This document shows positions 1 through 18,200 of a DNA stretch of 22,717 nt, one piece after another. This DNA comes from a virus: IMG/VR virus record IMGVR_UViG_3300021091_000452, positions 1 to 22,717 of that record, one strand, 5' to 3'. The notes under the pieces were generated by a model. The model did not search any database, had not been told where the DNA came from, and saw only the letters and a list, made by a program, of their open reading frames with translations. The position numbers and the translations under genes are program-made. Every line of letters begins with the position of its first letter. The stretch's first letter is position 1.

Positions 1-313
1 TCATCAGCGTTCTATTGAGCGATTTGATGCAGTTCCTGGTTATCATCAGCGCAAGATTGATGAACTCAAGTCTGGTAAGTGTGACATTGACTATACCATC
101 GAGACTGGTAAAAAGTATCACAAAATCATCTTTGTTGATGGTGGTGGACAACGCTCTGCTCATGCTTTCATTGACAAGAACACTGGCGAAGTGTATAAAA
201 CTGCCTCATGGAAGTCTCCTGCCAAAGGTGTTCGTTATGACCTGCGATTGATTGCTGATCGTGAATACCTGCTGGAACATGCAGATTGGAGCGGGGGGTA
301 TTTATACAAATAA
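1..313 (+). CDS. Small conserved cyanophage protein, C-terminal part (5' end outside window)
   Basis: The frame starting at base 2 is open to the TAA at 311-313 and gives 103 residues with no start codon required, so the gene enters from the left edge. The visible part has charged and glycine-rich stretches, including FVDGGGQRSAHAF, and ends in a well-formed C-terminus with ASWKSPAKGVRYDL and then DWSGGYLYK. I recall this VYK-ASW-PAKGVRYDL pattern from small cyanophage proteins of unknown function, but that is memory, not a search. An overlapping frame from 15 to 251 also stays open but has leucine/serine-rich, non-protein-like content. No catalytic motif is visible and no function is proposed. 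Confidence 0.85.
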   Translation, partial: HQRSIERFDAVPGYHQRKIDELKSGKCDIDYTIETGKKYHKIIFVDGGGQRSAHAFIDKNTGEVYKTASWKSPAKGVRYDLRLIADREYLLEHADWSGGYLYK

Positions 314-375
314 CTCACTCCCAGTCAGTTGGAACTTTCTATGATGCTATTGGAAACTCTGGACATTATTGCACG

Positions 376-576
376 ATGACTTACACTGACATCACAAAAC
401 TTGAGAATTGCCCTGAGTGTGGTGCAAACTGGGTTGAAAAACTCATCCCACAAAAATACTGGGAAAACTATTCTCCACCCTATTTTTATAGTCGTGTGAT
501 TGGTATTGAATTGCTTGGTGAAGATCGTATCAATCATTGGGTGTGCCCTGATTGTAACCACAAGTTTCCACGATGA
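376..576 (+). CDS. Small zinc-ribbon-like protein (two CxxC pairs)
   Basis: The 66-residue product has two cysteine pairs, CPECG near residue 13 and CPDCNH near residue 60, the layout of a treble-clef or zinc-ribbon metal site. The segment between them is aromatic (KYWENYSPPYFYSR). A single Zn ion is the likely ligand; the partner (nucleic acid or protein) cannot be told. I chose ATG 376 because the next gene starts in an almost identical context (ACGATGACTTAC). The frame also extends upstream to a TTG at 286, which would overlap the previous gene by 28 nt and add 30 residues with no clear pattern. The stop overlaps the next start as ATGA. Confidence 0.75.
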   Translation: MTYTDITKLENCPECGANWVEKLIPQKYWENYSPPYFYSRVIGIELLGEDRINHWVCPDCNHKFPR

Positions 577-827
577 CTTACTCTAACCTCTCCAAGATTC
601 GCCCGAAACTGAGAACATCAGGTAACATCACAGGTAACTTTGGACGCTCTAAAGCTAAAGCAGGTTCTTCACTCAATGATCTGGGTGGTGATGGTAACAT
701 TGGTTCCACACAGACTGAATACCTGAACCGATTGTATTATGCTTTTGATCATACTACCGAACCTCAACTTCGTTCATTTCTTTACACCGAAATTCGCAAG
801 ATTCTCATTCAACAAGGTAAATGGTAA
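573..827 (+). CDS. Hypothetical 84-aa basic protein
   Basis: ATG 573 overlaps the preceding TGA (ATGA), which suggests translational coupling. The N-terminal half is basic and rich in Gly, Ser and Asn (KIRPKLRTSGNITGNFGRSKAKAGSSL), probably flexible. The C-terminal half (from about residue 49) looks like an amphipathic helical pair, TEYLNRLYYAFDH and then PQLRSFLYTEIRKILIQQGKW. No enzyme motif is seen. No Shine-Dalgarno site precedes the start. I do not assign a function. Confidence 0.75.
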   Translation: MTYSNLSKIRPKLRTSGNITGNFGRSKAKAGSSLNDLGGDGNIGSTQTEYLNRLYYAFDHTTEPQLRSFLYTEIRKILIQQGKW

Positions 828-831
828 TCTC

Positions 832-975
832 ATGAAATACGAAGTCAAGTTATATGTTGGTGGCAAAGTTTTCACCGAAAGTGTAGAAGCCGTCAACAAT
901 CAGGACGCAAAAGCAACAGCACTTGCTCGCAATCCGAAAGCAAAAGTGATTGGAGTTAATCCAGTTTTCCGGTAA
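832..975 (+). CDS. Hypothetical 47-aa protein
   Basis: The product starts MKYEVKLYVGGKVFTESVEA and continues with NNQDAKATALARNPKAKVIGVNPVFR. It looks like a small alpha/beta fold: a beta hairpin, a helix with Ala-rich face, and a last beta strand. The frame is open further upstream to 739, but that part only shadows the previous gene, and ATG 832 lies 4 nt after its stop, so 832 is the natural start. The stop codon TAA at 973-975 overlaps the first base pairs of the repeated leader element. I recall similar short KYEVKLYVGGK proteins in cyanophages; function unknown. Confidence 0.75.
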   Translation: MKYEVKLYVGGKVFTESVEAVNNQDAKATALARNPKAKVIGVNPVFR

Positions 976-1011
976 TTAAAATAGCTCACCTCCAAAGCGT
1001 TCCTATGGTAT
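974..1011 (+). repeat. Leader repeat, copy 1
   Basis: A 38-bp sequence identical to 1639-1676 (AATTAAAATAGCTCACC, then TCCAAAGCGTTCCTATGGTAT). The core 978-1009 also matches 3924-3955 with two substitutions. It sits between the stop of the 47-aa gene and the start of the next. No Shine-Dalgarno site lies between it and the start. The first bases, TAAAAT, resemble a -10 box, but no matching -35 hexamer is visible. Confidence 0.9.
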
Positions 1012-1027
1012 GAGCACCACCCCAACC

Positions 1028-1291
1028 ATGATCGACTTCCCCACACTACAATCTAAGGATGGCACAATGCTAGTCGGATTCTATCCTGTTCAGACGCCAT
1101 TTGGTGACATTTCAGAAGAGTGGTGCCTGCAAATCTTGTCTTGGAAAGGTATTGATCAGATCAGCAAAAAGTATCTGAATCGTGTTGAAAAGTCTCTTGC
1201 AATTCGTGACCGTCTCAATCATGATTACATTCTGACTGGTGATAATCAAGATTTGCCACAACAAGGTAACCCTTTCTACGGTGCAGTCTGA
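1028..1291 (+). CDS. Hypothetical 87-aa protein behind leader repeat
   Basis: The product begins MIDFPTLQSKDGTMLVGFYP and continues with a mixed alpha/beta pattern ending NPFYGAV. No known motif is recognised. An ATG at 1010 would add MSTTPT, but it lies in the tail of the repeat; in the second copy the equivalent bases are not ATG, while the tails align (CACCAC...CCAAC) so that ATG 1028 matches the start of the gene behind copy 2. That is why 1028 is preferred. Its TGA overlaps the next ATG (TGATG at 1289-1293). Confidence 0.75.
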   Translation: MIDFPTLQSKDGTMLVGFYPVQTPFGDISEEWCLQILSWKGIDQISKKYLNRVEKSLAIRDRLNHDYILTGDNQDLPQQGNPFYGAV

Positions 1292-1488
1292 TGCGATTCC
1301 AAGTTACTCAAATTGAGTTTGATTTTGATGATGAAGAGGAGATGAATGAGGACGAAAAAAATACTATCACCAACGAATGTATCGGTCAAGTATGGGAAGC
1401 AATCGATGAAGATGACTTGATTGAAGAGATCACATGTACAACTGGTTGGTGTATCAAATCGATTGACTATCGTCATGTGTTAGTCTAA
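1291..1488 (+). CDS. Small acidic protein (65 aa)
   Basis: The start overlaps the preceding stop by one base (TGATG), a coupling signature. The protein opens with MRFQVTQIEFDFDDEEEMNE: a beta strand and a strongly acidic run, then a helix, then another acidic helix (EAIDEDDLIEEI) and a C-terminal strand ending SIDYRHVLV. Acidic small early proteins of phages often bind host proteins, but nothing here identifies a target. A fragment resembling its C-terminus appears again at 2040-2069. I recall the VTQIEFDFDDE opening from cyanophage genomes; function unknown. Confidence 0.8.
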   Translation: MRFQVTQIEFDFDDEEEMNEDEKNTITNECIGQVWEAIDEDDLIEEITCTTGWCIKSIDYRHVLV

Positions 1489-1491
1489 ACA

Positions 1492-1644
1492 ATGAGACGC
1501 AAATCCCTGACTTTTAAGAAACTCAATTCCATGAAAGTTCTCACACTCATCTTCATCGTAGCATTGTTTTTTTCACCCTCTGTTCGATCACTGACTTCCA
1601 ATACTTTACATACGGTAGCAGATCTGATCTCTTCGAGCAATTAA
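1492..1644 (+). CDS. Small membrane or exported peptide (50 aa)
   Basis: This frame is only 50 codons. Its N-terminus is basic (MRRKSLTFKKLNSMK), followed by an uninterrupted hydrophobic stretch at residues 16-27 (VLTLIFIVALFF) and a polar tail (SPSVRSLTS and onward). That is the layout of a signal peptide or a single membrane segment. A second ATG at 1531 would give 37 residues starting just before the hydrophobic core and is equally possible. Neither start has a Shine-Dalgarno site; ATG 1492 is 4 nt after the previous stop. The TAA at 1642-1644 lies inside leader repeat copy 2. Function unknown. Confidence 0.6.
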   Translation: MRRKSLTFKKLNSMKVLTLIFIVALFFSPSVRSLTSNTLHTVADLISSSN

Positions 1645-1676
1645 AATAGCTCACCTCCAAAGCGTTCCTATGGTAT
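1639..1676 (+). repeat. Leader repeat, copy 2
   Basis: Perfect 38-bp direct repeat of 974-1011, beginning within the last codons of the small membrane-protein gene and ending 21 nt before ATG 1698. The 3' flank CACCACTCACTCCAACTCATC is also partly alike in copy 1. No Shine-Dalgarno site lies between repeat and start. Confidence 0.9.
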
Positions 1677-1697
1677 CACCACTCACTCCAACTCATC

Positions 1698-2012
1698 ATG
1701 CGTAAGATCGAATCCCAGATGAACACTGCTATCACTGAGCACAAAGATCTCAAGTCAGGCAACACTCAAGTGGTTACTTATACCAACTGTTCTGATGTCT
1801 ATCTGCACGGTAATCTGATCGCTCGGATTGGTGAAACCTGGATCGAATTGTTCGATGGTGGTTGGCAATCACATACCACAAAGTCTCGCCTCAATGCACT
1901 TCTCCAAGCGTTTGGTATGCCTGGTGAGTATGTCTTCCAAAAGAACTTTCAGTGGTTCGTTCAATACAACGGAGCACCGATTCCTTTCTTCTCTGGTATG
2001 CGTCTCGCTTGA
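1698..2012 (+). CDS. Conserved cyanophage protein of unknown function (104 aa)
   Basis: The product starts MRKIESQMNTAITEHKDLKSGNTQVV. Its centre has DVYLHGNLIARI, followed by GGWQSHTTKSRLNALLQAFG near residues 57-76 and a C-terminal FQKNFQWFVQYNG segment. The NTxV / VYLHGNxIA / GGWxSxTTKSRLNA pattern is one I associate with a family widespread in cyanophages, with no known function; this is memory only. The start is fixed by the leader repeat ending 21 nt upstream. The frame continues past the TGA with an in-frame fragment described separately. Confidence 0.8.
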   Translation: MRKIESQMNTAITEHKDLKSGNTQVVTYTNCSDVYLHGNLIARIGETWIELFDGGWQSHTTKSRLNALLQAFGMPGEYVFQKNFQWFVQYNGAPIPFFSGMRLA

Positions 2013-2069
2013 ATCTTTCTCACTTTAATTAACAACAAAACCATTGATTATCGTCACATTCTCAAATGA
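2013..2069 (+). pseudogene. Possible remnant of a paralogue of the 65-aa acidic gene
   Basis: After the TGA at 2010-2012 the same frame runs 18 codons to TGA 2067-2069 and ends TIDYRHILK. The 65-aa gene at 1291-1488 ends SIDYRHVLV. At DNA level ATTGA-TATCGTCA is shared apart from third-codon changes. The fragment has no start and no acidic N-terminal part, so it looks like a 3' scrap left by duplication or recombination; a chance match is possible. Its stop overlaps the next start as ATGA. Confidence 0.4.
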
Positions 2070-2239
2070 CTGACCTTCGTTACTCTACGGGTGAAGAACT
2101 TGAAGAGTTCCTGTATGAAAAGTGCAGGCAAGATCCTGATCTTCTCGCTACTATCATCAATGAGTATGTGTGCTCGCTGAGTGATAACAAACTGATTGAA
2201 CTTGAAGACTTTCTCACTAACAACTTTGGAGACGATTGA
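2066..2239 (+). CDS. Small acidic protein (57 aa)
   Basis: The product MTDLRYSTGEELEEFLYEKC continues with RQDPDLLATIINEYVCSLSD and ends NKLIELEDFLTNNFGDD. It is acidic and apparently all-helical. It begins in an ATGA overlap with the remnant fragment and ends in a TGATG overlap with the next gene. The C-terminal SD--LI--LEDF pattern resembles the C-terminus of the next gene (SD--LI--VEEY), and both encode exactly 57 residues, so they may be tandem paralogues. No function assigned. Confidence 0.75.
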   Translation: MTDLRYSTGEELEEFLYEKCRQDPDLLATIINEYVCSLSDNKLIELEDFLTNNFGDD

Positions 2240-2412
2240 TGAACCGCACTGAACTCCAAGAATCATACATTCAACAGGTGATTGATAGTATGGACTACAA
2301 AACAATGGAACGTTTTGTGTATGATAATCTACAAGATAATCTGCAAGGTTATAGCGACGAAGAACTGATTGCAGAGGTTGAAGAATACTATCCCGAACTG
2401 CTGGAAGATTGA
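2239..2412 (+). CDS. Small acidic protein (57 aa), recurrent in cyanophages
   Basis: The start ATG 2239 overlaps the previous TGA by one base. The product begins MNRTELQESYIQQVIDSMDY and ends YSDEELIAEVEEYYPELLED after a central FVYDNLQDNL segment. It is helical and acidic. I recall the YDNL---GYSDEELI-EVE-Y-PELLE pattern as a frequent small cyanophage protein without known function. Coupling to the upstream gene is clear from the overlap. Confidence 0.8.
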   Translation: MNRTELQESYIQQVIDSMDYKTMERFVYDNLQDNLQGYSDEELIAEVEEYYPELLED

Positions 2413-2461
2413 ATCATGACGCATTATGTTTAATCTTTGTATCATTATCTGAACCAAGCTC

Positions 2462-2581
2462 ATGTATCTCAAAGTCACAAGATTGTCCCGCAGCAAAAAC
2501 GAATGGACGAGATTTGTTCATTTTCCTGATACTTACACTTTCCGCCATGCTGTTCGTCTTTTAGGCAATTCTCGCAAATGA
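2462..2581 (+). CDS. Small basic peptide (39 aa)
   Basis: The 39-codon frame encodes MYLKVTRLSRSKNEWTRFVH and then a tail ending VRLLGNSRK. It is basic, unlike its acidic upstream neighbours, and reads as one beta-rich unit followed by a helix. The stop TGA (2579-2581) overlaps the first bases of the terminator stem, typical of a last gene in a phage operon. A 49-nt gap without another good frame separates it from the previous gene. Short length is the main reason for doubt. Confidence 0.6.
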   Translation: MYLKVTRLSRSKNEWTRFVHFPDTYTFRHAVRLLGNSRK

Positions 2582-2604
2582 CCCTACTTATAGGGTCTTT
2601 TTTT
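2580..2604 (+). terminator. Rho-independent terminator of the first small-gene block
   Basis: Stem GACCCTA (2580-2586) pairs perfectly with TAGGGTC (2591-2597) around a CTTA loop and is followed by seven T residues (2598-2604). The last codon of the 39-aa gene overlaps it. The endonuclease gene on the other strand ends in the T-run. Confidence 0.9.
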
Positions 2605-3487
2605 ATGTCTTGTAATACCAATAACAACCAACCCAACTATTTTTTCCTGGATTTTTAAGTGATTTAAGTAATCCTGTTCCACGCTTTCCTCTTATAGTTA
2701 ATGATGCTTTATTTGCACTTTCAAACTCATAAACAAGTTTGCCAGTTTTCTTATCATAACCAACCACAGGTTTAATGACTGGTCTATTGTCGAGTTTCGT
2801 CCATTTATATCCATAAGCAGTCCAACCTTCTTTCATTGCTCTACATATGTTTCCTGCATATTTTTCGTTTCCTGTTACTTTAAGTGCTGCCTCTCTTGTA
2901 CCATCAAACTCAACAATCTCACCAGTTGTTATACTCTTACCCTGAATCTTTCGTTTTGCATGTGTACCACCTAAGTTCTTTTGTAAGAACATTCCCCACT
3001 TTTCTCCACGTTCTAACTTATTTTTAAGTCCAATACTTATACTCTCTTTCCACTCATCAGAACGAGAAACATTGCTCATCGTTTCTGATATTTTCTGTTT
3101 CGTATCTTCTGTGTGCTCAAAGTATTCTCCACCAGTTGTTGCATTATATCCACCCCGATATGAGTCGAGAAAATCTATCCACCATATTTCACGCTCATTT
3201 AGTATATCTACATTACACTCTTCAAGTATACGAATCTTGAATTTTTCTAGACCATACTTATTGATTGCCTTGTAGAGTGGTCTATCACTATGGATTCTAC
3301 TTTCTGTGATGTGTGCTAACCAACGTTTGTTGAGTTGTTGTCTTGTTTGACCAACATACTTCTTATCATTAACTGTGTTGGTGATGAGATAGATTATTCC
3401 TTGTTCCAATTCTATAACGTGCTGAGTGATTTGGTGGTATTTATGATAACCTACTGTCTTTTGGCAAGTTTTCCACAATTTCCACAA
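2603..3487 (-). CDS. GIY-YIG homing endonuclease with two C-terminal DNA-binding repeats
   Basis: Residues 30-35 (GIIYLI) and 43-48 (KYVGQT) form the GIY-YIG signature. Downstream are the expected Arg 55 in NKRW, Glu in LNEREIWWI (98-100) and Asn 115 in GYNATTGG, so the nuclease centre looks complete. The C-terminal half has two tandem modules, about 196-230 (REAALKV ... YGYKW) and 250-292 (ANKASLTI ... GCYWYY), of the NUMOD type that binds target DNA in free-standing homing endonucleases. The enzyme would cut a phage allele lacking the gene and promote its spread. The listed start is TTG; no ATG precedes the domain. A TTG at 3409 would give a compact N-terminus, MEQGIIYLI. The gene is antisense to all neighbours and stands alone. 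Confidence 0.85.
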   Translation of the reverse strand: MWKLWKTCQKTVGYHKYHQITQHVIELEQGIIYLITNTVNDKKYVGQTRQQLNKRWLAHITESRIHSDRPLYKAINKYGLEKFKIRILEECNVDILNEREIWWIDFLDSYRGGYNATTGGEYFEHTEDTKQKISETMSNVSRSDEWKESISIGLKNKLERGEKWGMFLQKNLGGTHAKRKIQGKSITTGEIVEFDGTREAALKVTGNEKYAGNICRAMKEGWTAYGYKWTKLDNRPVIKPVVGYDKKTGKLVYEFESANKASLTIRGKRGTGLLKSLKNPGKNSWVGCYWYYKT

Positions 3488-3680
3488 TCTGGGGAAAACG
3501 TTTATAAAAATAGGTTTGTGTGATTGTATAAAATTAGTGTTGTAATTAAATGCTTCTGGGTGTTGTTATCTTACAGGTCAGTTTATCACACGCCCGCAAA
3601 AATGTCAAGACCCCCGTGATCAGAAAATCTCCACAATCGCAAAAAAACTATAAGGACCGCAAATAAATATCCCTAGACCA
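3488..3680. other. Intergenic stretch upstream of the endonuclease and second small-gene block
   Basis: The intergenic span to 3736 contains no convincing gene. A 38-codon frame (3550-3666) exists without a ribosome site. An ATAAATA sequence at 3663-3669 matches the late-promoter core seen before gp25 and gp8. For the - strand endonuclease, TATACAAT (3518-3525, read on -) and TATAAA (3501-3506, read on -) are possible promoter elements, but neither has a good partner box. Confidence 0.4.
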
Positions 3681-3709
3681 TTGACATTTACGCCACAGTA
3701 TCTTAGAGT
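3681..3709 (+). promoter_or_regulatory. Sigma70-like early promoter
   Basis: TTGACA (3681-3686, consensus) is followed after 17 bp by TAGAGT (3704-3709, four of six matches). It lies 28 bp upstream of a gene with a good AGGAG ribosome site, so it is well placed to be read by host RNA polymerase. Confidence 0.65.
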
Positions 3710-3736
3710 AGTTTCATAACACACAGGAGCGAACTT

Positions 3737-3910
3737 ATGTCAGTTGTATATCAGCAGGCACAGAAGCAGCGTTATAGGATCACTCTGGATCTATCAGTAT
3801 TCGGTGACTTCGACCCACACCAGATTGATTGGGAGAAGTTATTCAAGTTGGAAGGTGCGGAGAAGTGTGAAGCTTATGTTGAGGATCTAAGTACACCTGA
3901 CCGTTGGTGA
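3737..3910 (+). CDS. Conserved small cyanophage protein (57 aa)
   Basis: ATG 3737 has a clear Shine-Dalgarno site, AGGAG at 3725-3729, with 7 nt spacing, one of few in this half of the window. The product starts MSVVYQQAQKQRYRITLDLS and continues with VFGDFDPHQIDWEKLFKLEG, ending YVEDLSTPDRW. I recall the RYRITLD-SVF-DFDPHQIDW and EDLSTPDRW patterns from many cyanophages, function unknown. It is the first gene after a sigma70-like promoter, so it is probably early. Its codon use (CTG, CGT, GAC) is less AT-biased than that of the structural genes. Confidence 0.85.
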   Translation: MSVVYQQAQKQRYRITLDLSVFGDFDPHQIDWEKLFKLEGAEKCEAYVEDLSTPDRW

Positions 3911-3923
3911 TTATAGGGATTCA

Positions 3924-3955
3924 AAAATAGCTCACCTTTAAAGCGTTCCTATGGT
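3924..3955 (+). repeat. Leader repeat, copy 3 (diverged)
   Basis: Thirty of 32 bases match the core of copies 1 and 2; CACCTCC becomes CACCTTT. It lies 13 nt after the stop of the 57-aa gene and 35 nt before ATG 3991. The conserved blocks are AAAATAGCTCACCT and AAAGCGTTCCTATGGT. Confidence 0.85.
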
Positions 3956-3990
3956 GCAAGGGTCACTCCCACACAGTCACTGACACTTTG

Positions 3991-4272
3991 ATGCTGAACT
4001 TCATCCCCTACGCTATTCGTCGTCCGTTCTACTATGTGTTCGACCTGATCGCATGTTCTGATTTTCGCAATGAAGAATTCGGTCGGATCTTTGATGCCTA
4101 TGAGTATGAGCAATCAACGCAAATCCTAGGGTTCATTAACTACTTGGGTATGTCAGGTCAGTTAGATCTACCTGAGAACTTTGACCTGTTCGCTGATGTT
4201 GAAACTCTAGAGCAAGCAGTAGAGAAGTGGAATGATTATCAGGACTTGATGAACACTTCCACGCTGGCATAG
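3991..4272 (+). CDS. Hypothetical 93-aa protein behind leader repeat
   Basis: The product starts MLNFIPYAIRRPFYYVFDLI and continues with ACSDFRNEEFGRIFDAYEYE. A central helix (TQILGFINYLGMSGQLDLP) and an acidic C-terminal half follow, ending KWNDYQDLMNTSTLA. A TTG directly before the ATG also opens the frame, but ATG is the plain choice. The N-terminal aromatic and basic stretch could be membrane-peripheral, but no true transmembrane segment is present. Function unknown. It follows leader repeat copy 3 with no Shine-Dalgarno site. Confidence 0.75.
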   Translation: MLNFIPYAIRRPFYYVFDLIACSDFRNEEFGRIFDAYEYEQSTQILGFINYLGMSGQLDLPENFDLFADVETLEQAVEKWNDYQDLMNTSTLA

Positions 4273-4293
4273 GTAACAACAAAGGGGAATGAG

Positions 4294-4341
4294 ATGCGCC
4301 TCTATAAAGACACTCACTGTTCCACACTTATTCTAACATAA
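4294..4341 (+). CDS. Possible 15-residue peptide with strong ribosome site
   Basis: AAGGGGA at 4282-4288 lies 5 nt before ATG 4294, the best ribosome-site match nearby, but the frame is only 15 residues (MRLYKDTHCSTLILT). It ends 10 nt before the next gene, so it may be a coupling leader, or the ribosome site may be accidental. Confidence 0.25.
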   Translation: MRLYKDTHCSTLILT

Positions 4342-4351
4342 AACACGAAAA

Positions 4352-4477
4352 ATGTCCAAGTCTGTGATGCTTTCTCTTCTTGCTCAGGGTAACACTGGCA
4401 GCGAGATTCTGTCGATTCTTGATACTCTCGCTGCTGAATCTGTGAGTGATACTGAGGAGAGCACTATCGAGTTCTGA
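4352..4477 (+). CDS. Small conserved cyanophage protein (41 aa)
   Basis: The product is MSKSVMLSLLAQGNTGSEIL followed by SILDTLAAESVSDTEESTIEF: a short N-terminal helix, a GNTGSEIL turn, a second helix and an acidic tail. I recall the MSKSV---LL--GNTG-EIL-ILD pattern as recurrent in cyanophages, without known function. No Shine-Dalgarno site precedes the ATG; the leader is A-rich (ACACGAAAA). It is the last intact gene of the accessory block; a promoter for the next region starts 26 nt after its stop. Confidence 0.75.
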   Translation: MSKSVMLSLLAQGNTGSEILSILDTLAAESVSDTEESTIEF

Positions 4478-4502
4478 TTGTTAACAACTGTGCGTCCCCT
4501 GG

Positions 4503-4531
4503 TTGACACTGGGGGGCGTTTATGTTATACT
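4503..4531 (+). promoter_or_regulatory. Near-consensus sigma70 promoter
   Basis: TTGACA (4503-4508) and TATACT (4526-4531) are separated by exactly 17 bp: eleven of twelve bases fit the consensus. It is the strongest host-type promoter in the window. The -35 box lies between CCCC (4497-4500) and GGGG, a partial dyad that could hold an operator. No gene of normal size follows for about 350 bp. Confidence 0.8.
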
Positions 4532-4537
4532 CGTAGA

Positions 4538-4620
4538 TATCAGTGCGGGCCAGTGTTTTGCCGCCCGTTGTTGATGGCGTCGTGGCGGCGTTGCGTTAAT
4601 TAACCCCCGTATTAAAAAAA
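4538..4620 (+). ncRNA. Possible structured leader or small RNA
   Basis: Just downstream of the promoter is a GC-rich stretch, unlike its AT-rich surroundings. CGGGC (4546-4550) can pair with GCCCG (4563-4567); GCCGCC (4560-4565) can pair with GGCGGC (4584-4589). The two stems share 4563-4565 and exclude each other. A 9-codon frame (4574-4603, MASWRRCVN) lies across the second stem. A 10-bp palindrome GTTAATTAAC is at 4595-4604. No clear terminator hairpin is seen. Confidence 0.3.
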
Positions 4621-6889: not shown

Positions 6890-6909
6890 ATAAAATTTAT
6901 AAATTTTAT
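6890..6909. repeat. Perfect 20-bp palindrome spanning the gp25 start
   Basis: ATAAAATTTATAAATTTTAT equals its own reverse complement. Its last two bases are the A and T of the gp25 start codon. All pairs are A-T, so an RNA hairpin would be weak; a DNA site for a dimeric protein is an alternative. Confidence 0.85.
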
Positions 6910-7309
6910 GCCTGTCGAACGGGTAAGTAAAGGTTTTAAAGATTTAAGTATGACTTTTCAGGTTAATCCTGTTAGTTTTGACATGATTGCAATTAAAAAT
7001 GAAAATGCAATTGCCCGTTCAATCAGAAATTTGGTTTTTACTCTTCCCGGAGAAAGATTTTTTAATCAAAATTTGGGATCAAGAGTAACTCAATCTCTTT
7101 TTGAGAATATGGATGGCATTAATGCATCTATCATTAGAGATGAAATTGAAAATACAATCAAAAATTATGAGCCAAGAGTGAAGTTAATAGATGTAATCGT
7201 AGAACCTAATTACGATGATAATGAATTTAATGTGATCATAAACTTTCGTATTATTGGAATTGAAGCTCTTCCACAACAATTATCATTCGCACTGCAGCCA
7301 ACACGATAA
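6908..7309 (+). CDS. gp25: Baseplate wedge subunit gp25
   Basis: The 133-residue product matches T4 gp25 (about 132 aa) in length and belongs to the GPW/gp25 family. Visible family features are the N-terminal strand region (LSMTFQVNPVSFDMIAIKNE), the helix AIARSIRNLVFT, the signature LPGERFFNQNLGSRV at 46-60 and the C-terminal strands VIVEPNYDDNEFNVIINFRI. gp25 is the part of the wedge that contacts the tail-sheath start and helps trigger contraction. The start follows a late promoter with a short AT leader and no Shine-Dalgarno site. The stop overlaps the gp6 start by one base (TAATG), so the two are translationally coupled. Confidence 0.95.
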   Translation: MPVERVSKGFKDLSMTFQVNPVSFDMIAIKNENAIARSIRNLVFTLPGERFFNQNLGSRVTQSLFENMDGINASIIRDEIENTIKNYEPRVKLIDVIVEPNYDDNEFNVIINFRIIGIEALPQQLSFALQPTR

Positions 7310-9225
7310 TGGCATTAGTTAATTTCACAAGTCTAGATTTTGATCAAATAAAGACTTCGATCCGTGAGTATCTCAGATCGAATTCTGATTTTACTGACTA
7401 TGATTTTGAAGGATCAAATCTTTCAGTATTAATTGATATTCTAGCATATAACACATATATCTCCTCATATAATGCTAATATGATTAGCAATGAGGTTTTT
7501 ATTGATAGCGCAACACTGAGAGAAAATGTAGTTGCTCTTGCTAGAAATATTGGTTATGTTCCCAAATCCAGAACAGCAGCAAGGGCATCAATTTCATTCT
7601 TTGTAGATACTACAAACTTCTCCATAAAACCACTTACTTTAACATTAAATAAAGGTGTTGTATGTGCATCGGCAAATGTGTTTGGAAATGAAAGTTATAG
7701 TTTTGCTATTCCAAATGATATAACAGTTCCAGTTACTAATGGAATTGCTTTTTTTGAGGGTGTCGAAATTTATGAGGGAACATTTTTAACTTCAAACTTT
7801 GTAGTCCCCTCTGGTACATCTTTTGAAACCCAAAGATACATTCTTGATAATGCAAACATTGATACATCAACTATTTCAGTAACAGTCAGAGACACCCAAT
7901 CAAGTACATATTCTAGAAAATTTGTTTTATCCAATAATTTACTTTCGGTAAATTCAAAATCAAGAGTATTCTTTATACAAGAAATAGAAGATCAAAGATA
8001 TGAGTTAATTTTTGGTGATGGTATATTTGGGGAAAAACTATCTGCTTTAAATTATATTAATGCCTCTTACATTATTACGAGTGGAGAATCAGGAAATGGA
8101 ATATCTTCATTTACATTCAATGGTAGAATTGTAGACAATAACAATGGTCTCGTCACTAATGGAATTTCTCTGGTAACAACAAATACTGCATCTCAGGGAG
8201 GAAAAGAAATTGAATCCTTGGATTCAATTAAAAAGTATGCTCCAAGAGTTTATTCATCTCAAAATCGCGCAGTAACTGCAATGGATTATGAAACCATTAT
8301 ACCAAGAATTTATCCAGAAACTCAATCAGTATCAGTATTTGGTGGAGAAGATCTAGATCCACCTCAGTTTGGAAAGGTGTTCATTACTATCAAACCATCT
8401 TCTGGGTCATACATTCCAAGTTCAATAAAAGATAATTTAAAAAAAGAACTTAGAAAATATAGTGTTGCGGGAATTGTTCCAGAAATTCTTGACATAAAAT
8501 ACCTTTATGTTGAAGCTGACATTACTGCCTACTACAATCCCAATCTTGCACCAAATTCAGAGTATGTTAAAACTTTAATATCAAATAATATTAATTCATA
8601 TACAAATTCTACTGAATTGAACCGCTACGGTGCGAAATTTAAATATAGCAAATTCCAAAAAATTATAGATGATAGTCATGAATCTATTACTTCTAATATT
8701 ACAAAAATTCAAATTAGAAGAAATTTAAATCCAAATCTAAATCGGTTTGCTAATTATGAACTTTGTTATGGAAATTCTTTTCATATTAAGAGTATGGGAG
8801 GATATAATATAAAATCCTCTGGATTTACAATAAGTGGAATACAAGAAACTTGCCATCTATCAGATCTACCAAATTCGAATAAAAAGACAGGCACAATTTT
8901 TATATTTACGAACCCCGACTCAATTAATCCAGTAATTCAAAATAAATCAGTTGGAACCATAGATTATGAAAAAGGTGAGATTATACTTAATGAAATTCAA
9001 ATAATATCTACATCAAAAACTTTTAATGGAGAACCTATAATTGAAATTGCTGCGATTCCATCTTCGAATGATGTTATCGGAAAACAGGATCTTTATTTGG
9101 AACTAGATATTAATAACACAACCTTAAACATGAAAATTGATGATATTTCTTCTGGTGCAGATATTTCTGCATCTTTATATGATTCCACCATAAGTTACAC
9201 AAACGGTAGTCGCGTAAGAAAATAA
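7309..9225 (+). CDS. gp6: Baseplate wedge subunit gp6
   Basis: The 638-residue protein is close to T4 gp6 (660 aa) and belongs to the baseplate J-like family. The N-terminal part has the signature LIDILAYNTYISSYNANMIS followed by NEVFIDSATLRENVVALARN and GYVPKSRTAARASI (about 43-95). The centre has RYELIFGDGIFGEKL (about 227-241), and AVTAMDYETIIPRIYP (about 322-337) followed by GGEDLDPPQFGKVFI, a typical J-like block. gp6 dimers link wedges into the ring of the baseplate inner part. The C-terminal quarter is less recognisable and contains one Cys pair. A 5-nt gap separates it from the giant gene. Confidence 0.95.
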   Translation: MALVNFTSLDFDQIKTSIREYLRSNSDFTDYDFEGSNLSVLIDILAYNTYISSYNANMISNEVFIDSATLRENVVALARNIGYVPKSRTAARASISFFVDTTNFSIKPLTLTLNKGVVCASANVFGNESYSFAIPNDITVPVTNGIAFFEGVEIYEGTFLTSNFVVPSGTSFETQRYILDNANIDTSTISVTVRDTQSSTYSRKFVLSNNLLSVNSKSRVFFIQEIEDQRYELIFGDGIFGEKLSALNYINASYIITSGESGNGISSFTFNGRIVDNNNGLVTNGISLVTTNTASQGGKEIESLDSIKKYAPRVYSSQNRAVTAMDYETIIPRIYPETQSVSVFGGEDLDPPQFGKVFITIKPSSGSYIPSSIKDNLKKELRKYSVAGIVPEILDIKYLYVEADITAYYNPNLAPNSEYVKTLISNNINSYTNSTELNRYGAKFKYSKFQKIIDDSHESITSNITKIQIRRNLNPNLNRFANYELCYGNSFHIKSMGGYNIKSSGFTISGIQETCHLSDLPNSNKKTGTIFIFTNPDSINPVIQNKSVGTIDYEKGEIILNEIQIISTSKTFNGEPIIEIAAIPSSNDVIGKQDLYLELDINNTTLNMKIDDISSGADISASLYDSTISYTNGSRVRK

Positions 9226-9230
9226 AAAAC

Positions 9231-12200
9231 ATGGTAGTTACAAGAATCAAAATTAGTTCAGTTGTTGAAAATCAACTTCCATCTTTTGTAAGAGATGAAT
9301 TTCCACTTGTAAATGAATTTTTATCTGAATATTATAGTTCACTTGAATATCAAGGTGGTGTATTAGATCTTTTGCAAAATATAGATCGATACATTAAATT
9401 AGATCAACTTACTAATCTTGTAGATTCCACAACGATTACATCTGAAATTAATCTTGGCGATGCCACAATAAATGTACAATCGACAAAAGGATTTCCGGAT
9501 TCTTATGGATTATTAAAAATTGGGTCCGAAATTATTACGTACAAATCCAAAACCAATACTTCATTTAATGAATGTGTTAGAGGATTTAGTGGGGTAATTT
9601 CTCACCAAAATCCATTAAAACCAGATAATTTGATTTTTACAACATCAGCAAGAGAAGAACATGTGAATGGTTCTTCTGTTTTGAATTTAAGTATTTTATT
9701 TTTAAAAGAATTTTATAAAAAAGTAAAAAAACAATTTTCGCCAGGATTTGATGAAAGAGATTTATTTTCAAATTTAAATCAGAGTCTTTTTATAAAGCAA
9801 GCGAAGGACTTTTATTCTTCAAAAGGGACCGACCAATCCTTTGAAATTCTTTTTAGATCTTTATATGGAGAAGATGTTGAGGTAATTAAACCAAGAGATT
9901 ATTTGTTTACTCCATCGGATGCACAATATAGAATTACAAAAGATTTGATTGTAGAAGAAATTGAAGGTAATCCTTTTGATCTTCTCAACAGAACTCTTTA
10001 TCAAGATGAAGATTCTTATTTTAAATCGACTTTTGGATCGGTTAATAATGTTGAGAAAGTATCTAGGGGTGGAAAAGATTATTATGCTATTAGTTTAGAT
10101 TATGATCCCAATGTAGATTTAGAAAAAGATTCTCAACGTTCTGATTTTTCTATTCACTCACAAACAAAATTAGTTACATCTTGCTCAATTGGATCAGATG
10201 TTATAGATGTTGATTCTACAATAGGATTTCCAAATTCTGGATTTTTAGTTGCAGATTTATCTAACGGAACATCTCTTACCATTTCATACACATCAAAGTC
10301 ATACACACAATTTTATGGATGTACTGGAATAGATCAGGAGTTAATTTCTGGGCAAAATATTAGAATTAATTCATATGCCTATGGATTTGTTGGATCAGAC
10401 GTTGTTAAAGTAAGAGTCACCGGAGTTTTATCTAATTTAAATTATGGTGTTGATACCAAGTATCATGATGAAGGAGAGTCTATTCAAATAAAAACTATTG
10501 GAAAAGATTCTAATGATGTAAGAGCAAATAACTGGATTTTTAATATTGCCACAACATATGATATTGACACTCTAACATTAACAGATTTAGTAAATTTTTC
10601 TTATAGAATTGTAACAATAGATAATCATAGCATATATGTTGGGGATAGTGTAAAGTTAATTTTCACCGATAGTACCGAAGTAGTATCTTCGGTAGTTGAA
10701 GTTTTAAATCAAAAATCTTTCATTATTGCAGATCAAGGACAAATTGACGTAAACAAAAAATATAAGGTTCAAAAATTAATATCCAAGACAAATGCTTTAA
10801 ATTTTTCATCATCTAATATTTACAGCACTAATGTACAGAATACATATCAAGATGGAAAAAACTCTTTTTATGTAACTTCATCTTCTCTACCAAGTTACTT
10901 GAATCAGTCATTATTGGTAAAAGATAGGTCTGTAACTTTCTCCGGATTCTTTAATGGTGTAGATTTAGTAATCGGAAATCATGGATTCTATACAGGAGAT
11001 GCTGTTTTTTATTCTGCAGAGTCAGTCTCTAATAGTCTAGGTATTCAAGATCAAATTTATTTTGTCAATAGAGTAAATTCAACAACAATTAATTTATCTA
11101 GAAGTAGATCTAACCTTTACGAAGACAAATTTATTTCATTTAATGCTACTGTCACAAATAATAAATTAGTTTTTAATGATTTTTATAACCAAACTCTTGA
11201 TAATCAAAAATTAGTAAGAAATATTTTATCGCCAGAAATTGCGTCAAATTCTACTGAGACCTCCCCAGGACCGATAGGAATTTTAGTTAATGGAGTTGAA
11301 ATATTAAATTATAAATCAAGAGACAGTCTTTTTTATGGACCATTGGAGGAGATAAATGTTTTATCTCCTGGATCAAATTATGATGTTATAAATCCTCCCA
11401 TTCTTTCAATATCAGACCCTGTTGGATTTGGAGCAACTGGATTTTGTGAAGTTGAAGGGGAGTTTGAAGAAATACAAGTTATTGATGGTGGTTTTGATTA
11501 CATAACAGAACCTGTAATTAGTGTTACTGGTGGTTCTGGGTCGGGAGTTCAAGCAAAGGCTCAACTCATTGATTTTAGTCATGCTGTTTCTTTTAATGCA
11601 ACATCTTTCGGAGATGTTAATCTCACCAATGACACAATTACATTTTCAAATAACCACAAATTTAGAAATGGTGAAGTAGTTATCTATGACCCAGAAGGTC
11701 AACAGTCTGTTGGTGGATTGAGCACAAATTCCACTTATTATATCTCAACGCAAACAGAAAAGCAGATAAAAATTCATACTAATGCAAATGATGCACTTAC
11801 AAATACAAATCCAATAAATCTCACCTCATATGGTGTTGGTAATCATAGACTTATTTCGGTTCAATTAAAGAAAAAGATTTCTTCTGTTATACTAACTAAT
11901 AAAGGAACAAAGTATAAGAATAGAAAAATTTCAATAAGTCCAGTAGGAATTAATACATTTTCAAATATAATTGAAGCAAAAAACCATGGATATTCAACGG
12001 GAGATATAATTGTTTATTCCACAACCGGCAGTGAAATTGGTGGGTTGCAAAATGGAAAATCTTATTTTGTAACTTCTCTTGATGAAAATTCCTTTAAACT
12101 ATCTAATGTTGGAACATCAAGCACTATTGGAATAGGGTCAGCTATTGTTGGTGTATCAACTTCCCTAGATTTCTATTTTAAAAATAAACAGTATGTTAAT

Positions 12201-15200
12201 CTCTCAGGTAAAGGAACAGGAAATCATATTTTTAACTATCCACAAATTAATGTATCGATTAGTGGAAAAATAGGAGTCTTCTCTCCATCGGGAACAGATT
12301 ATCAAGCTGTTTTACAACCAATTGTAAGGGGACAAATTAAATCTGTATTTTTAGAGTCTGGTGGAACTAATTATGGATCTGAAAAAATTCTAAACTTTAA
12401 TAGACAAGCCTCAATAACACTCAAAAGTGGTCAAGGTGCTGAGGTAATTCCAGTTTTATCGAATGGAAAAATAGTACAAGTTTTAATCACAAATCCTGGA
12501 TCTGGTTACAATTCTCCACCAACTTTAATTGTTTCTGGTCCTGGAATTGGAGCAAAACTAACTCCCATTATTTCAAATGGATCTTTAACAGAAGTAAAGG
12601 TTATAAATGGTGGAGTTGGGTATGATACTGCATTAATTAATGTTGTTTCCTCTGGAACAGGCGCAGAATTTAAATCTGTCCCCCAAAAATGGACTGTGAA
12701 TTTGGTTGAAAGAAATATTCAAAGCAATCAAATTACAGATGATGATGGAATAATTGATACTGGGATCAATTCAAATTATGGGTTACAATATACACATCTA
12801 TATGCTCCAAGAAAATTAAGACAAACTATTTTTTCCCGTGAAGTTATAAATGGTCAAATTTCATATTTACCTGACTTAAAGATAGAAAATGGAAAAGAAT
12901 CTCTTTCAAATACACATTCACCAATTATTGGGTGGGCATATGACGGCAATCCAATATATGGACCATATGGATATTCAACAATAAATGGAGGATCTGTAAA
13001 ACCAATAGAATCTGGATATTACCTATCTTTAAAACCAAATAGACCATCAACTTCAATTTTTCCAGAGGGATTTTTTGTCGAAGACTACTCATACAGGTCA
13101 AGAGGAGACTTAGATGAGTACAATGGTAGATTTTGTGTAACTCCGGAATTTCCAAATGGAGTTTATGCTTATTTTGCAACTATTGATGGGTCTGGCGTTG
13201 AATCATCTCCACCTTTTAGAAATTATAGAAAACCAGTTTTTCCATACTTTATTGGTAACAGTTACAAATCAAAACCAAATCAGTATAATTTTTCTCCTCT
13301 GTCAAATCAAGATAATATTGATCTGAAAAATACTACATTTTTTAGAAACACTACTCCATATAATTTATTGGATAAAAATAGTGGATATGACTTTATAGTA
13401 AATTCAAATAATATTAAGAGACAAAATTCTATTGTAAGGTATGTAAAACCAGGAATTGTGGATTCTATTGGTATTAAAACCGGGGGATTCAACTATAAAA
13501 TTGGAAATAAAGTTATTTTTGACAATTCAAAATCTGGGGGACAGGGAGTATCAGCTGAGGTTAACTTACTAAACGGAAAACAAATAAGAAACATCAGTGT
13601 TAACTCGGTTTCCATTAGTGGAGTTGAATTTATTTCAAATCCACAAGGTATTATTGGGTTTGCTACATCACCACACAATCTTTCTATTCCATCTAATAAT
13701 GTTATAATTACAGGATTAAACACTTCTACCTCAAATCTAAATGGAAATAATGTTGTTGGTGTTAGATCTGAGACCTTTTTACTTTCTGTTGGAGTTGGAA
13801 CAACAGGATCTACTGGTATAGTAACTTATTTCAGTGTTTTTGGTCCTCTCGATTTTCCTAATATTAGAGAAAATGATGTTTTAAAAATAGATTCTGAGAA
13901 ATTAAAAGTATTAAATATTGATCGTGAATCATCAAGAATAAGAGTTTTAAGAGAATATGAAGGGTCAACTGGATCTTCTCATACAGTATCATCTTTAATA
14001 TATGAAGATTCTAGAAAATTTACAGTTTCTTATAATCCAAGAATTGATTTAAAATCAACAAAATATAATAAAGAGATTTATTTTAATCCCCCAGAATCTA
14101 TTGGAATTGGAACAACATCAGGAATAGGAATAGGTGCAACTTTATTTTTCTCAAATCCAGGAGTTGGTGCATCATCTCTCTTCATCCCAACTAGAACAAT
14201 ATACTTGCCAAATCATAATTTATCTACGGGAGATGAATTAATTTACTCATCAAATGGTGGTAATCCAATAACAGCGTCTACAAATGGAATATCAACTTTC
14301 CAATTAGTAGATGATCAGATTGTTTATGTAGCCAAAGTAAACGATAGTTTAATTGGAATAGCAACAAATCAGGTTGGAGTAGGTTCTACTGGTATTTTTG
14401 TGGGTATAAACAGTTCTGTTACCACAGAAATTTTATATTTTACAGATCCTGGACTTGGAGAAATTCATAGTTTTACAACAAACTATAAAGATATTGTAGT
14501 TGGAGAAGTTAATAAAAATTTAGTTACAGTTTCCACTGCTGAGACTCATGGGTTAAATGTTAACGATATCGTAAATATTTCTTGTTTGTCTGGAATATCT
14601 ACTACTTATGTTATCAAATATGATGATTACAATAGAAGAATGGTCATTGATCCAAAATCATTTATATCCGGAGATGTAGATGCTTCTAATGACACGATTC
14701 AAATTCTTTCTCATGGGTATATTACCGGACAAAAAGTTATTCATACTTCATCTTCCCCTGCCGGTGGTCTTGAAAATGGAGAAATTTATTTTGTTGTAAA
14801 AGTAGATAATAATAGATTAAGACTAGCAAAAACTTATTATGATTCGACATTAAGCGATCCGAATTATGTTAATATAACTAGTGTTTCCTCTGGAACATTA
14901 TCGCTTGTAAATCCTCCAATTACAGGAACCAGAAATCAGCAAATTATTTTTGATGTATCAGATTCATCTTTATCATATAATATAAGTTTTAATAAGTATC
15001 CAGCATTTAAATTTGATATATACACAGATTCTTCTTTTGATACTACTTTTGATTCTAGAAAAAAGACTGGTGAATTAAATATTATTAGAAATGGTATATT
15101 GGGAGTAGATGCAAATGCTACTGTTACAATCAATCTTTCAAATGATGTTCCAAATACACTTTATTATCAACTGACTCCCGTTGATTATGATACAAATAAT

Positions 15201-18200
15201 ATTACAAAACTAGAAATAATATCTGATTCTGAAAATATTTTAGATAATAATAAAATACTTGTAAATCCAAGTATTTATAGTGGTAGACATTCAATTTCAG
15301 GAATCGGATCAACTACATTTTCATATACTATTTTTAATAAACCAGAAAAGTTATCATACACGGATTCAGAAGCTACGCTTTCATATACAACAAATTCTTT
15401 AACAGCATCGGGTGGAATTTCTAGTATTAGAATAAATTCTGGTGGATATGGATATGAAAGTTTGCCTGCTATCGTAAGAATAGATTCCTTAGATGGATCT
15501 GGCGCTGTAATAGAACCATCAGGATCTACCGTAGGAAGAATTTCTTTAACGGAGATACTCGATATTGGATTTGAGTACTCATCGGATCCATCAATAAGAC
15601 CTATTGCAAAAATTCCACAAGTTTTAAAATTAAAAACAACATCATCATTTGAAAGAATAGGTATTTCTTCAATAGGAAAACAATATAACATATCTCCGGA
15701 TCTAATTGTCATAGATTCGATTACAAAACAAATTGTTTCCGATGTTGATCTAAGATATAAACTTGGAGATAAAGAAGTTACTATCTTAAAAAATACAGGT
15801 GGAATTAGTAATTCAATTCCAGAAATTATACCAATCAATAATCCAAATGGTGTTGGAATTAATTCAATATCTTATAATGAATCAACAAAAGAAGTTACTG
15901 TTGGATTAGCAGTAAGTTATAGTTCTTCTAATGATTATCCATTTTCGGTTGGTGATAAAGTAATTATTGAAAACACTAGAGTTGGATTTTCAACCTCAGC
16001 AAAAGGATATAATTCCTCTTCATATGGATATGCTTTGTTTACCTTGAAGGCAATAGATCCAAATATTGGTGGAGCAAATGGAACTGTAACTTATAGTCTA
16101 GGAGAATATCTATCATCTGGAGAAAATCCAGGAGTATTTAATTTATCTCTTTCTGCGGGAAGAATTACTCCACAAAAGTTTTTCCCAATATTTGATGTTA
16201 AGTTGAAAAAAAATGAACTTAGAATTGGAGAAATAGTTTCTACCGAAACTGCAAGTGGCACAGTTGAAAAATGGTATTTTGATAATGATATATTGGTAGT
16301 TTCTACAACTCAAGATTTTAAATCTGGTGATATATTAGTAGGATCTTCATCAAAAACAAAATGCTCAATTGAATTAGTTTTCTCAAATGATGCTGACTAT
16401 AATATTTCTGCAACATCATTAGTTAAGAGGGGTTGGAACTTAGAGTCTGGATTTTTAAATAATGATTACCAAAGAATACACGATAGTGATTATTATCAAT
16501 ATTTTTCATACTCTTTAAAATCAAAAATTGAGTATGAAGATTGGAAAGATCCTGTCAGTTCAATGAACCACACTGCAGGATTTAAAAAATTCTCAAATTT
16601 AATCATTGAATCAAATGACGCATCTTTTAGTGGAATATCAACCGAACAAAACTTGGGAGATTTCACTGCAACTGCGGATATTATTAATGTTGTTGGATTA
16701 AACTGTGTTAATGACTTCGATCTTGCAAGAGAAAACAAATTGACAATAGGATCTGATATTATTTCAGATGAAATAATATTAAATTCATCTTCAATTCAAG
16801 ATTATTTTGAATCTGTTGGAAATAGAGTTTTAGTAATTGATGACATTAGCAGCAGATTTAATAGTAATCCAAGGCCAACTCCTTTTAGTGCAGTAGATTC
16901 GTTTGATCTATCAACTGTAAGATCTAAAAAATACATATCATATATTGTAGATAGAAGATTCACTGGAGAAAAACAAATAAGTGTTACTACACTGTTGCAT
17001 AATGATCTTTTTGGATTCTTAAATCAATATGGAAGAGTTGAAACCGCAAATGATCTTGGTTCATTTGATTTTATCATTAGTGGAAGTGAAGGGCAACTTT
17101 TATTCTATCCAACAAAATTCCAAGCAAATGATTATAGTATAAATCTATTCTCATATGATATAAAGAATACTGTCTCTGGAATAGGCACTATCAATCTAGG
17201 AGATACTGTAAAAATAAACAGTAGCATCAAAACAATTCCAGTGGGATTTAGCACAACAACTAATTTAGTCAGCTTTGCTTCCACATATAGAGCATCAAAA
17301 ATTATTGTTCAATATGCAGCGATAGATAATTCTTATTTCGAATATGATGAACTTACTATTATTCACGATGGATCATCTGCTAATATTCTAGAATATGGAC
17401 AACTATCTACTAATATTTTATCCCCACTTGGATCAAGTGGGATAGGAACTTATAGTGCATATCTTTCGGGGTCGGAGGTAAAGTTAGATTTTACTCCAAA
17501 TGTAGGATTATCTACATCTTATCATGTCAATTCAATTTTGGTTTCAATAGCAAATACCTCATCATCAGGAATTTCTTCAACAACTCTGAGAACTGGCAAA
17601 CTAGAATCAGCAATAACTTCTATTGCTTCTTCAACATCACCAACACCCACAGTAGTTTCCGAGTATGAAAATACTTATTCGGCAGCTTATTATATTGCAA
17701 GTGTAGAAGATACTACAAATAATCAATATCAAATATCTGAAATTATTGTTGTGGATGATGGAACAACACCATCAATAACTGAATTTGGTATTTTGCACAC
17801 ATCTTCAAATATTGGAAATTTTGATGCTAGCATTTCTGGTGGAAAAACAAAATTAACATTTACTCCAATAGCAAATTCAAATGTTGAAGTAAGAGTTTTC
17901 CAAAATTCACTAAGATTTTTTGATGAAAATCTTACAGAATTAATTGATTTTACAAATGCTTTAATTGATACAGGAAGCGGAACTTATGATGGAACAGAAT
18001 CTGATATAAGAAGAATTTTTGAGTTAACACATAAAGGACTTCCAATATTCAGAAGAAATATTTTAGGAAATTCTTCAACCGTTGTTGATTTGACAAATAA
18101 CCTTATTAAAATTCCCAACCATTATTTTGTAACTGGCGAAGAATTGAGGTATACCCATTCCGGACAAGGAACTTCACAATCTATTGGTATTTCAACAGAA

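Follow-up and report, generated by a model that had tools for sequence, protein, structure and literature searches.

An element that joins a common core to a phage-specific box and recurs before small genes of T4-like cyanophages is probably a modular promoter

Introduction

What is the function of a sequence that recurs almost unchanged in front of small genes with unlike products? This question is raised by a fragment of a T4-like cyanophage (IMG/VR record IMGVR_UViG_3300021091_000452), whose 22,717 nt were analyzed as a whole and are referred to as the window, and in which a 32-base element is present at 978-1009, 1643-1674, and 3924-3955. A preliminary description had suggested a regulatory element, acting in translation control, RNA processing or protein binding, that may mark a set of co-regulated genes. 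Among 281 phage records resembling bases 1-4600 of the window, 280 bear Synechococcus, Prochlorococcus or cyanophage names. Marine T4-like cyanophages reportedly have no T4-like middle promoters and are missing motA and/or asiA (PMC5780444), which raises the question of how their non-late genes are timed.

The results indicated that the element is real, widespread and regulatory. Judging from sequence comparison, it would constitute a family of modular promoters whose box is read by a phage-specific factor, with a probability of about 0.6. The element would be a promoter-type DNA site from which the small genes located in the plastic region by gp25/gp6 are transcribed in a group of T4-like cyanophages. 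The shared core, CTAAAGYGTCCCTATAGTRTRAG, would probably be read by RNA polymerase, the box of about 10 bp directly upstream, which varies by phage, would be read by a phage-specific factor (an activator, a sigma-like protein or a repressor), and the genes behind the element would be early. A promoter is favored because hundreds of one-strand copies lie at gene starts, with a shared core, a phage-specific box and, in some cases, terminators upstream, and also because of A/T-rich upstream positions, box dyads above those of shuffles and the lack of an RNA fold.

Results

Copies of the Element in Other Phages

When up to three mismatches were allowed, the 32-base pattern matched the window three times, versus 0 matches in 100 dinucleotide shuffles. 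A strict motif search was preferred over a looser set, which includes a few chance matches (e.g., window 12952, minus strand). The strict motif gave 473 matches (363 distinct) in 118 viral contigs or phages (1.46 Mb), a count that expresses breadth and not frequency, most of these sources having been chosen because they match. Exact or near copies of the window version were present before small genes in 24 IMG/VR contig stretches, with up to seven per stretch. The regulatory element proposed in the preliminary description was thus supported, relatives carrying further copies of the same version and hundreds of the wider family. A simple local duplication without function, to which the identity of two window copies over 38 bp might point, has a negligible probability, since it is refuted by the hundreds of copies in other phages with 0 expected in shuffles.

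In the clade of the window, the left part AAAATAGCTCACCTCYAAAGCGTTCC and a GT were nearly constant, and the four bases preceding the GT were variable (TATG, TACA, AGTG, CATA, CACA, AATG). Diverged versions of equal length were observed in the cultured phages S-B43 (8 copies, TTACTCACCTCCAAANGTCCACTATAGTGTAAG) and SynMITS9220M01 (12 copies, TTACTCACCTCTAAAGTGTCCCTATAGTGTAAG), and matches were also obtained in S-B05, RN05-S, and RB11-B. The cultured Synechococcus phage S-SM2 carried about 12 copies, with GGGGGGTCG in place of TTACTCACC and with CTAAAGCGTCCCTATAGTRTRAG retained. A scan for the core CTAAAGCGTCCCTATAGTRTRAG alone detected 72 IMG/VR stretches with many left parts, such as GTTAGTAACCT, GTTAGGATCGT, AACAGGGAGCCC, CACTGAGGCCT, AGCCGGCCCT, AACTGGTACCC, ACTTGGATCCT, TAGTGGGCCAC, and TTGCGCACCT, among others. 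The strict motif was absent from Syn9, S-PM2, S-CREM1, DSL-LC02, and S-ShM2 (T4-like cyanophages, about 0.9 Mb). Additionally, genome contigs were scanned with TACTCACCTYNAAANGTCC for host copies, and the 10 isolated matches obtained, in unrelated bacteria, were consistent with chance.

A Shared Core and a Phage-Specific Box

The two parts of the element were compared in the 66 sources with at least three copies. Within a contig, box identity was 0.86 and core identity 0.84; between box types, the values were 0.41 and 0.78, respectively. As the box types are defined by box difference, it is the persistent similarity of the core that is informative. At least 15 kinds of box were distinguished. 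Orthologues of the Gp96-family gene found at 1698 in the window had at least nine different boxes upstream, and where a contig had several copies, the box before this gene was that of the other copies. Therefore, the box goes with the phage and not with the gene. Exceptions to this uniformity were contig L172, with one odd copy, and contig L002, with two box types. The latter types, TAGTGGGCCAC and TAGCTCACCT, lie around 4031 and 6113 of L002, which is possibly a recombinant of two phage types.

Several left parts showed GG-NN-CC or similar dyads, and the summed dyad score of the boxes was above that of shuffles (4 of 1000 reached the observed value). Neither a lone second copy nor an antisense partner of the S-SM2 box was detected in that phage, all 12 exact GGGGGGTCG sites preceding a core, one of them degenerate.

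Position of the Element and Gene Starts

The copies were on one strand in all 80 sources with two or more of them. A gene start was located at position 0, the base at the element end, or within 40 nt in 315 of the 363 distinct strict copies; in the looser set, a gene start was near the element in 341 of 400 copies versus 19 mirrored. In SynMITS9220M01 and in the window, the copies cluster in the small-gene region before gp25, and in S-B43 they cluster near gp25 and around the helicase gene. A comparable region of small genes, including a helicase gene, precedes gp25 in Syn9.

The search admitted only A or G (R) at position 0, and a T stands before this base. Position 0 was the first base of an ATG in 140 of the 363 copies. 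In 79 of 86 distinct genes this ATG opens an uninterrupted frame, and where a further ATG lies within 40 nt, it is in that frame in 50 of 54 (p about 9e-20). Because of this open frame and of the next ATG lying in it, the ATG at the element end is translated, and some mRNA must then include position 0. No second start was present within 40 nt in 32 of the 86 distinct genes of this class. In the copies without ATG, the frame preference was weak (53, 36, 33) and the starts were mostly 14-25 nt downstream. A different arrangement was observed in a few copies of L013, L027, and L029, where the ATG frame has at most 10 codons (MSTTPTPLYF and a stop) and ends before the real gene.

Action in DNA or in RNA

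These start codons, which most copies have either at position 0 or 14-25 nt further on, could also be explained by an element that is transcribed and acts in RNA, either as a leader for translation start or as the place where polycistronic mRNA is cut to give 5' ends at R. The use of the position-0 ATG and the location of some copies in tandem genes, directly behind a stop codon, agree with this role. Nevertheless, it appears unlikely. RNAalifold detected 0 conserved pairs among the copies, and an Rfam search of the element gave 0 matches. Weak A/T-rich positions were found at -47..-43 and -35..-28, inside unrelated preceding genes (264 distinct upstream contexts), where UP elements could be located. 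Some copies lie directly behind strong intrinsic terminators, and a role in RNA would leave the phage-specific box without a reason. Single-strand folds of the copies were also considered as a sign of RNA structure and were discarded, as they were not clearly better than those of shuffles.

With regard to the terminators, a hairpin and T-run stopped 12-21 nt short of the box, with a gene directly behind the element, in at least eight distinct instances (L186, L228, L199, L183, L164, L197, L217, and L187). Transcripts from upstream should end there; therefore, transcription of the gene must begin within the element, where it presumably restarts. The argument rests on individual cases, several of which lie before one gene family. 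Most of these composites (L186 about 870-950, L228 about 2810-2900, L187, L164, L183, and L199) precede one conserved family with the N-terminal motif HxEHPEDxILTG. Hence, of the three mechanisms offered in the preliminary description, protein binding to DNA, as a promoter, was favored by the lack of a conserved fold, the A/T tracts and the copies behind terminators, and translation control and RNA processing were less favored.

Promoter Type and Start Site

Judging from the ATG evidence, the mRNA, at least that of genes without another start, would begin at the R that follows TATAGT or upstream of it. If TATAGT were instead the -10 hexamer of a plain host sigma70 promoter, with the box bound by a MotA-like activator, transcription would start at the preferred A six bases beyond R, and genes with only the position-0 ATG would depend on read-through mRNA. 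Such a sigma70 promoter is one form of the promoter reading, with a likelihood that overlaps that of the best explanation, and it was considered somewhat unlikely. TATAGT agrees with TATAAT in 5 of 6 bases, it lies 11 bp behind the box in many copies, within the 12 +/- 1 spacing of T4 middle promoters (PMC2988021), and the base at +6 is A in 73% of the profile. Nevertheless, the translated position-0 ATG argues against a simple sigma70 promoter with this hexamer as -10. Genes with a second ATG could be reconciled with such a start, the read-through mRNA giving a longer form, but not easily the 32 of 86 genes without one within 40 nt; in L187, a gene of this kind lies behind a terminator. Moreover, the second-position A of the hexamer is not its most conserved base.

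Several of these observations also weigh against the modular promoter preferred here. Together with the conflict between a -10 hexamer and the 32 genes without a second start, the first two positions of TATAGT (T, A) were less conserved than its TAGT end, some copies had AGTAGT or TGTAGT instead, and the hexamer of the window's own copies is TATGGT and not TATAGT. The -35 TTGACA of a sigma70 early promoter (TTGACA-N17-TATAAT) was absent from the upstream profile, and a promoter scan picked up 0 of the 3 window copies. Terminators upstream were only slightly enriched overall (11 of 394 copies, 2.8%, vs. 33 of 2000, 1.7%). The trans factor was sought by phyletic pattern, i.e., among genes common to the element-bearing phages and absent from the cyanophages without the strict motif, and this search gave several small proteins without assigned function, none clearly DNA-binding.

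A more specific version of the modular promoter can be proposed, although it is rather unlikely in all its parts: at least 15 box versions, each with its own fast-evolving phage factor, would give transcripts starting at or near the start codon, from a promoter that is neither of the sigma70/MotA type nor T7-like. If true, co-infecting phages would not fire one another's genes, and the transcripts would be leaderless or have very short leaders. The small genes would probably be expressed from such a promoter at early or middle times.

Gene Shuffling at the Element

One flank was switched more often at element junctions than at other gene junctions (0.91 vs. 0.77), in pairs that are non-independent and within a region that is plastic as a whole. 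The switched flanks include those of window copies 2 and 3 compared with L013 and L001. Such a pattern agrees with gene shuffling at repeats, which has been proposed for the promoter-stem-loop (PeSL) cassettes of T4-type phages. Such switching would also be expected from a PeSL-like recombination cassette spread and homogenized by gene conversion, whose box would have no specific binding factor, and concerted evolution can yield uniformity within a phage. However, this explanation is very unlikely: the core was conserved across phages and the box was not, which requires selection on the core, the spacing of 0 nt or 14-25 nt to the starts is regulatory, and the non-independence of the pairs applies here as well.

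The Three Copies in the Window

The preliminary description was accurate as to the copies themselves: 974-1011 and 1639-1676 agree in all 38 bp, and 3924-3955 matches at 30 of 32 positions, two positions of the core pattern having changed (CC to TT). Each copy was indeed found between a stop codon and a same-strand gene start, the products differ, and a direct reading of the window sequence showed no Shine-Dalgarno site between element and gene. The gene starts given at 1698 and 3991 were kept, and the first, given at 1028, was corrected: this gene probably starts at ATG 1010, since the ATG of relatives at that position was in frame in 50 of 54 distinct cases. The features are as follows.

980-991, plus strand: copy 1, phage-specific box AATAGCTCACCT, from pattern match and box comparison
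992-1009, plus strand: copy 1, shared core CCAAAGCGTTCCTATGGT; AAA at 994-996 is nearly invariant across the family
1010-1291, plus strand: gene behind copy 1, 93 aa, weak phrog_500 match; probable start at ATG 1010, at the element end and in frame with ATG 1028
1645-1656, plus strand: copy 2, phage-specific box AATAGCTCACCT
1657-1674, plus strand: copy 2, shared core CCAAAGCGTTCCTATGGT
1698-2012, plus strand: gene behind copy 2, Kyano_Gp96 family (PF23790), from family match
3926-3937, plus strand: copy 3, phage-specific box AATAGCTCACCT
3938-3955, plus strand: copy 3, shared core TTAAAGCGTTCCTATGGT
3991-4272, plus strand: gene behind copy 3, without a family match, 93 aa

Further along the window, gp25 (PF04965) is located at 6908-7309 and a gp6-like protein is encoded at 7309-9225. 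A GIY-YIG homing endonuclease gene (PF01541, phrog_314) occupies 2603-3487 on the minus strand, between copies 2 and 3. Since the matching elements of L001 are about 1.06 kb closer together than these two copies, the endonuclease gene may have been inserted recently. After gp6, a single open reading frame of 3992 codons extends over 9231-21209, at the place where Syn9 has a putative 18-kb fibre gene.

Discussion

The motif family in the cultured phages S-SM2, S-B43, S-B05, RN05-S, RB11-B, and SynMITS9220M01 represents a concrete candidate regulon for the non-late genes of T4-like cyanophages. It offers a testable start site and, through co-variation, a route to the matching regulator. Moreover, promoters and gene starts could be annotated with its help for many small phage genes that have no annotation, since the element-end ATG is often the true start.

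An early-gene regulatory element of cyanophage Syn9 was reportedly described by Doron et al. in ISME J in 2016. It is likewise a repeated regulatory element of T4-like cyanophage genes; unlike it, the shared-core motif is absent from Syn9 (0 copies), and a de novo motif search of the Syn9 small-gene region did not return it. A different composite, CAGTT-N-AAGTGTCCAC, about 28 nt and GTGTATTCTATAAGAGT, is present in that region and may be the early element. The sequence AAGTGTCC is common to this composite and the shared core, and the two may or may not be homologous. In Syn9 (L070, L089-L097), DSL-LC02, S-ShM2, and S-CREM1, a repeated composite, the dyad CAGTT-N-AACTGTCCAC followed after 25-30 nt by GTGTATTCTATAAGAGTC or similar, was observed before small genes.

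PeSLs (Arbiol 2010 and Comeau 2014, as cited in PMC4503421) resemble the element in that both are brief regulatory units recurring between the genes of a plastic region, at which genes appear to be shuffled, and a few copies of the element follow a terminator. They differ from it in that most copies here are without a stem-loop (a stem-loop terminator joined to the promoter was present in 11 of 394 copies), no TTGACA/TATAAT pair occurs and the phage-specific box is new. Few PeSL-like units were reported in S-PM2 (Puxty 2015). The intergenic repeats of halovirus HF2 also precede genes, and the nine that were tested were all active promoters (PMC8707807). HF2 is, however, an archaeal virus with an unrelated sequence, and the abstract of that study describes genus-wide conservation and no diverging box. 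Text searches of the literature, whose scope left out Doron 2016, Arbiol 2010, and Comeau 2014, found no description of the motif.

T4 middle promoters combine a MotA box with a sigma70 -10 hexamer (PMC2988021). The cyanophage element is similar in having many copies per genome and a phage-specific box about 11-13 bp before a TATAAT-like hexamer. Many copies have TATAGT, 11 bp behind the box, whereas the hexamer reads TATGGT in the window and AGTAGT or TGTAGT elsewhere. Unlike that of T4, the box is not TGCTTtA, and it varies between phages while the core is common; the full MotA box, (a/t)(a/t)(a/t)TGCTTtA, was not found in boxes such as AGCTCACCT, TTACTCACC, and GGGGGGTCG. Furthermore, the cyanophage start codons lie at the end of the hexamer.

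The promoters of T7-family RNA polymerases are long, conserved and uniform within a phage, with a region differing between phages and a TATAG near the start. The cyanophage element shares the uniformity within a phage, the one region that differs between phages and the TATAG near the start, but its variable region is located further upstream. A search for a single-subunit RNA polymerase (PF00940) gave no match in S-B43, SynMITS9220M01, and Syn9, a weak test in which the control was also silent. By analogy, the element would work like the class of phage promoters with a phage-specific recognition box, to which T4 middle and T7-family promoters belong, its membership of either being not established. 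What appears to be new is that a common core is combined with a box that keeps its sequence throughout one phage and changes from one phage to another.

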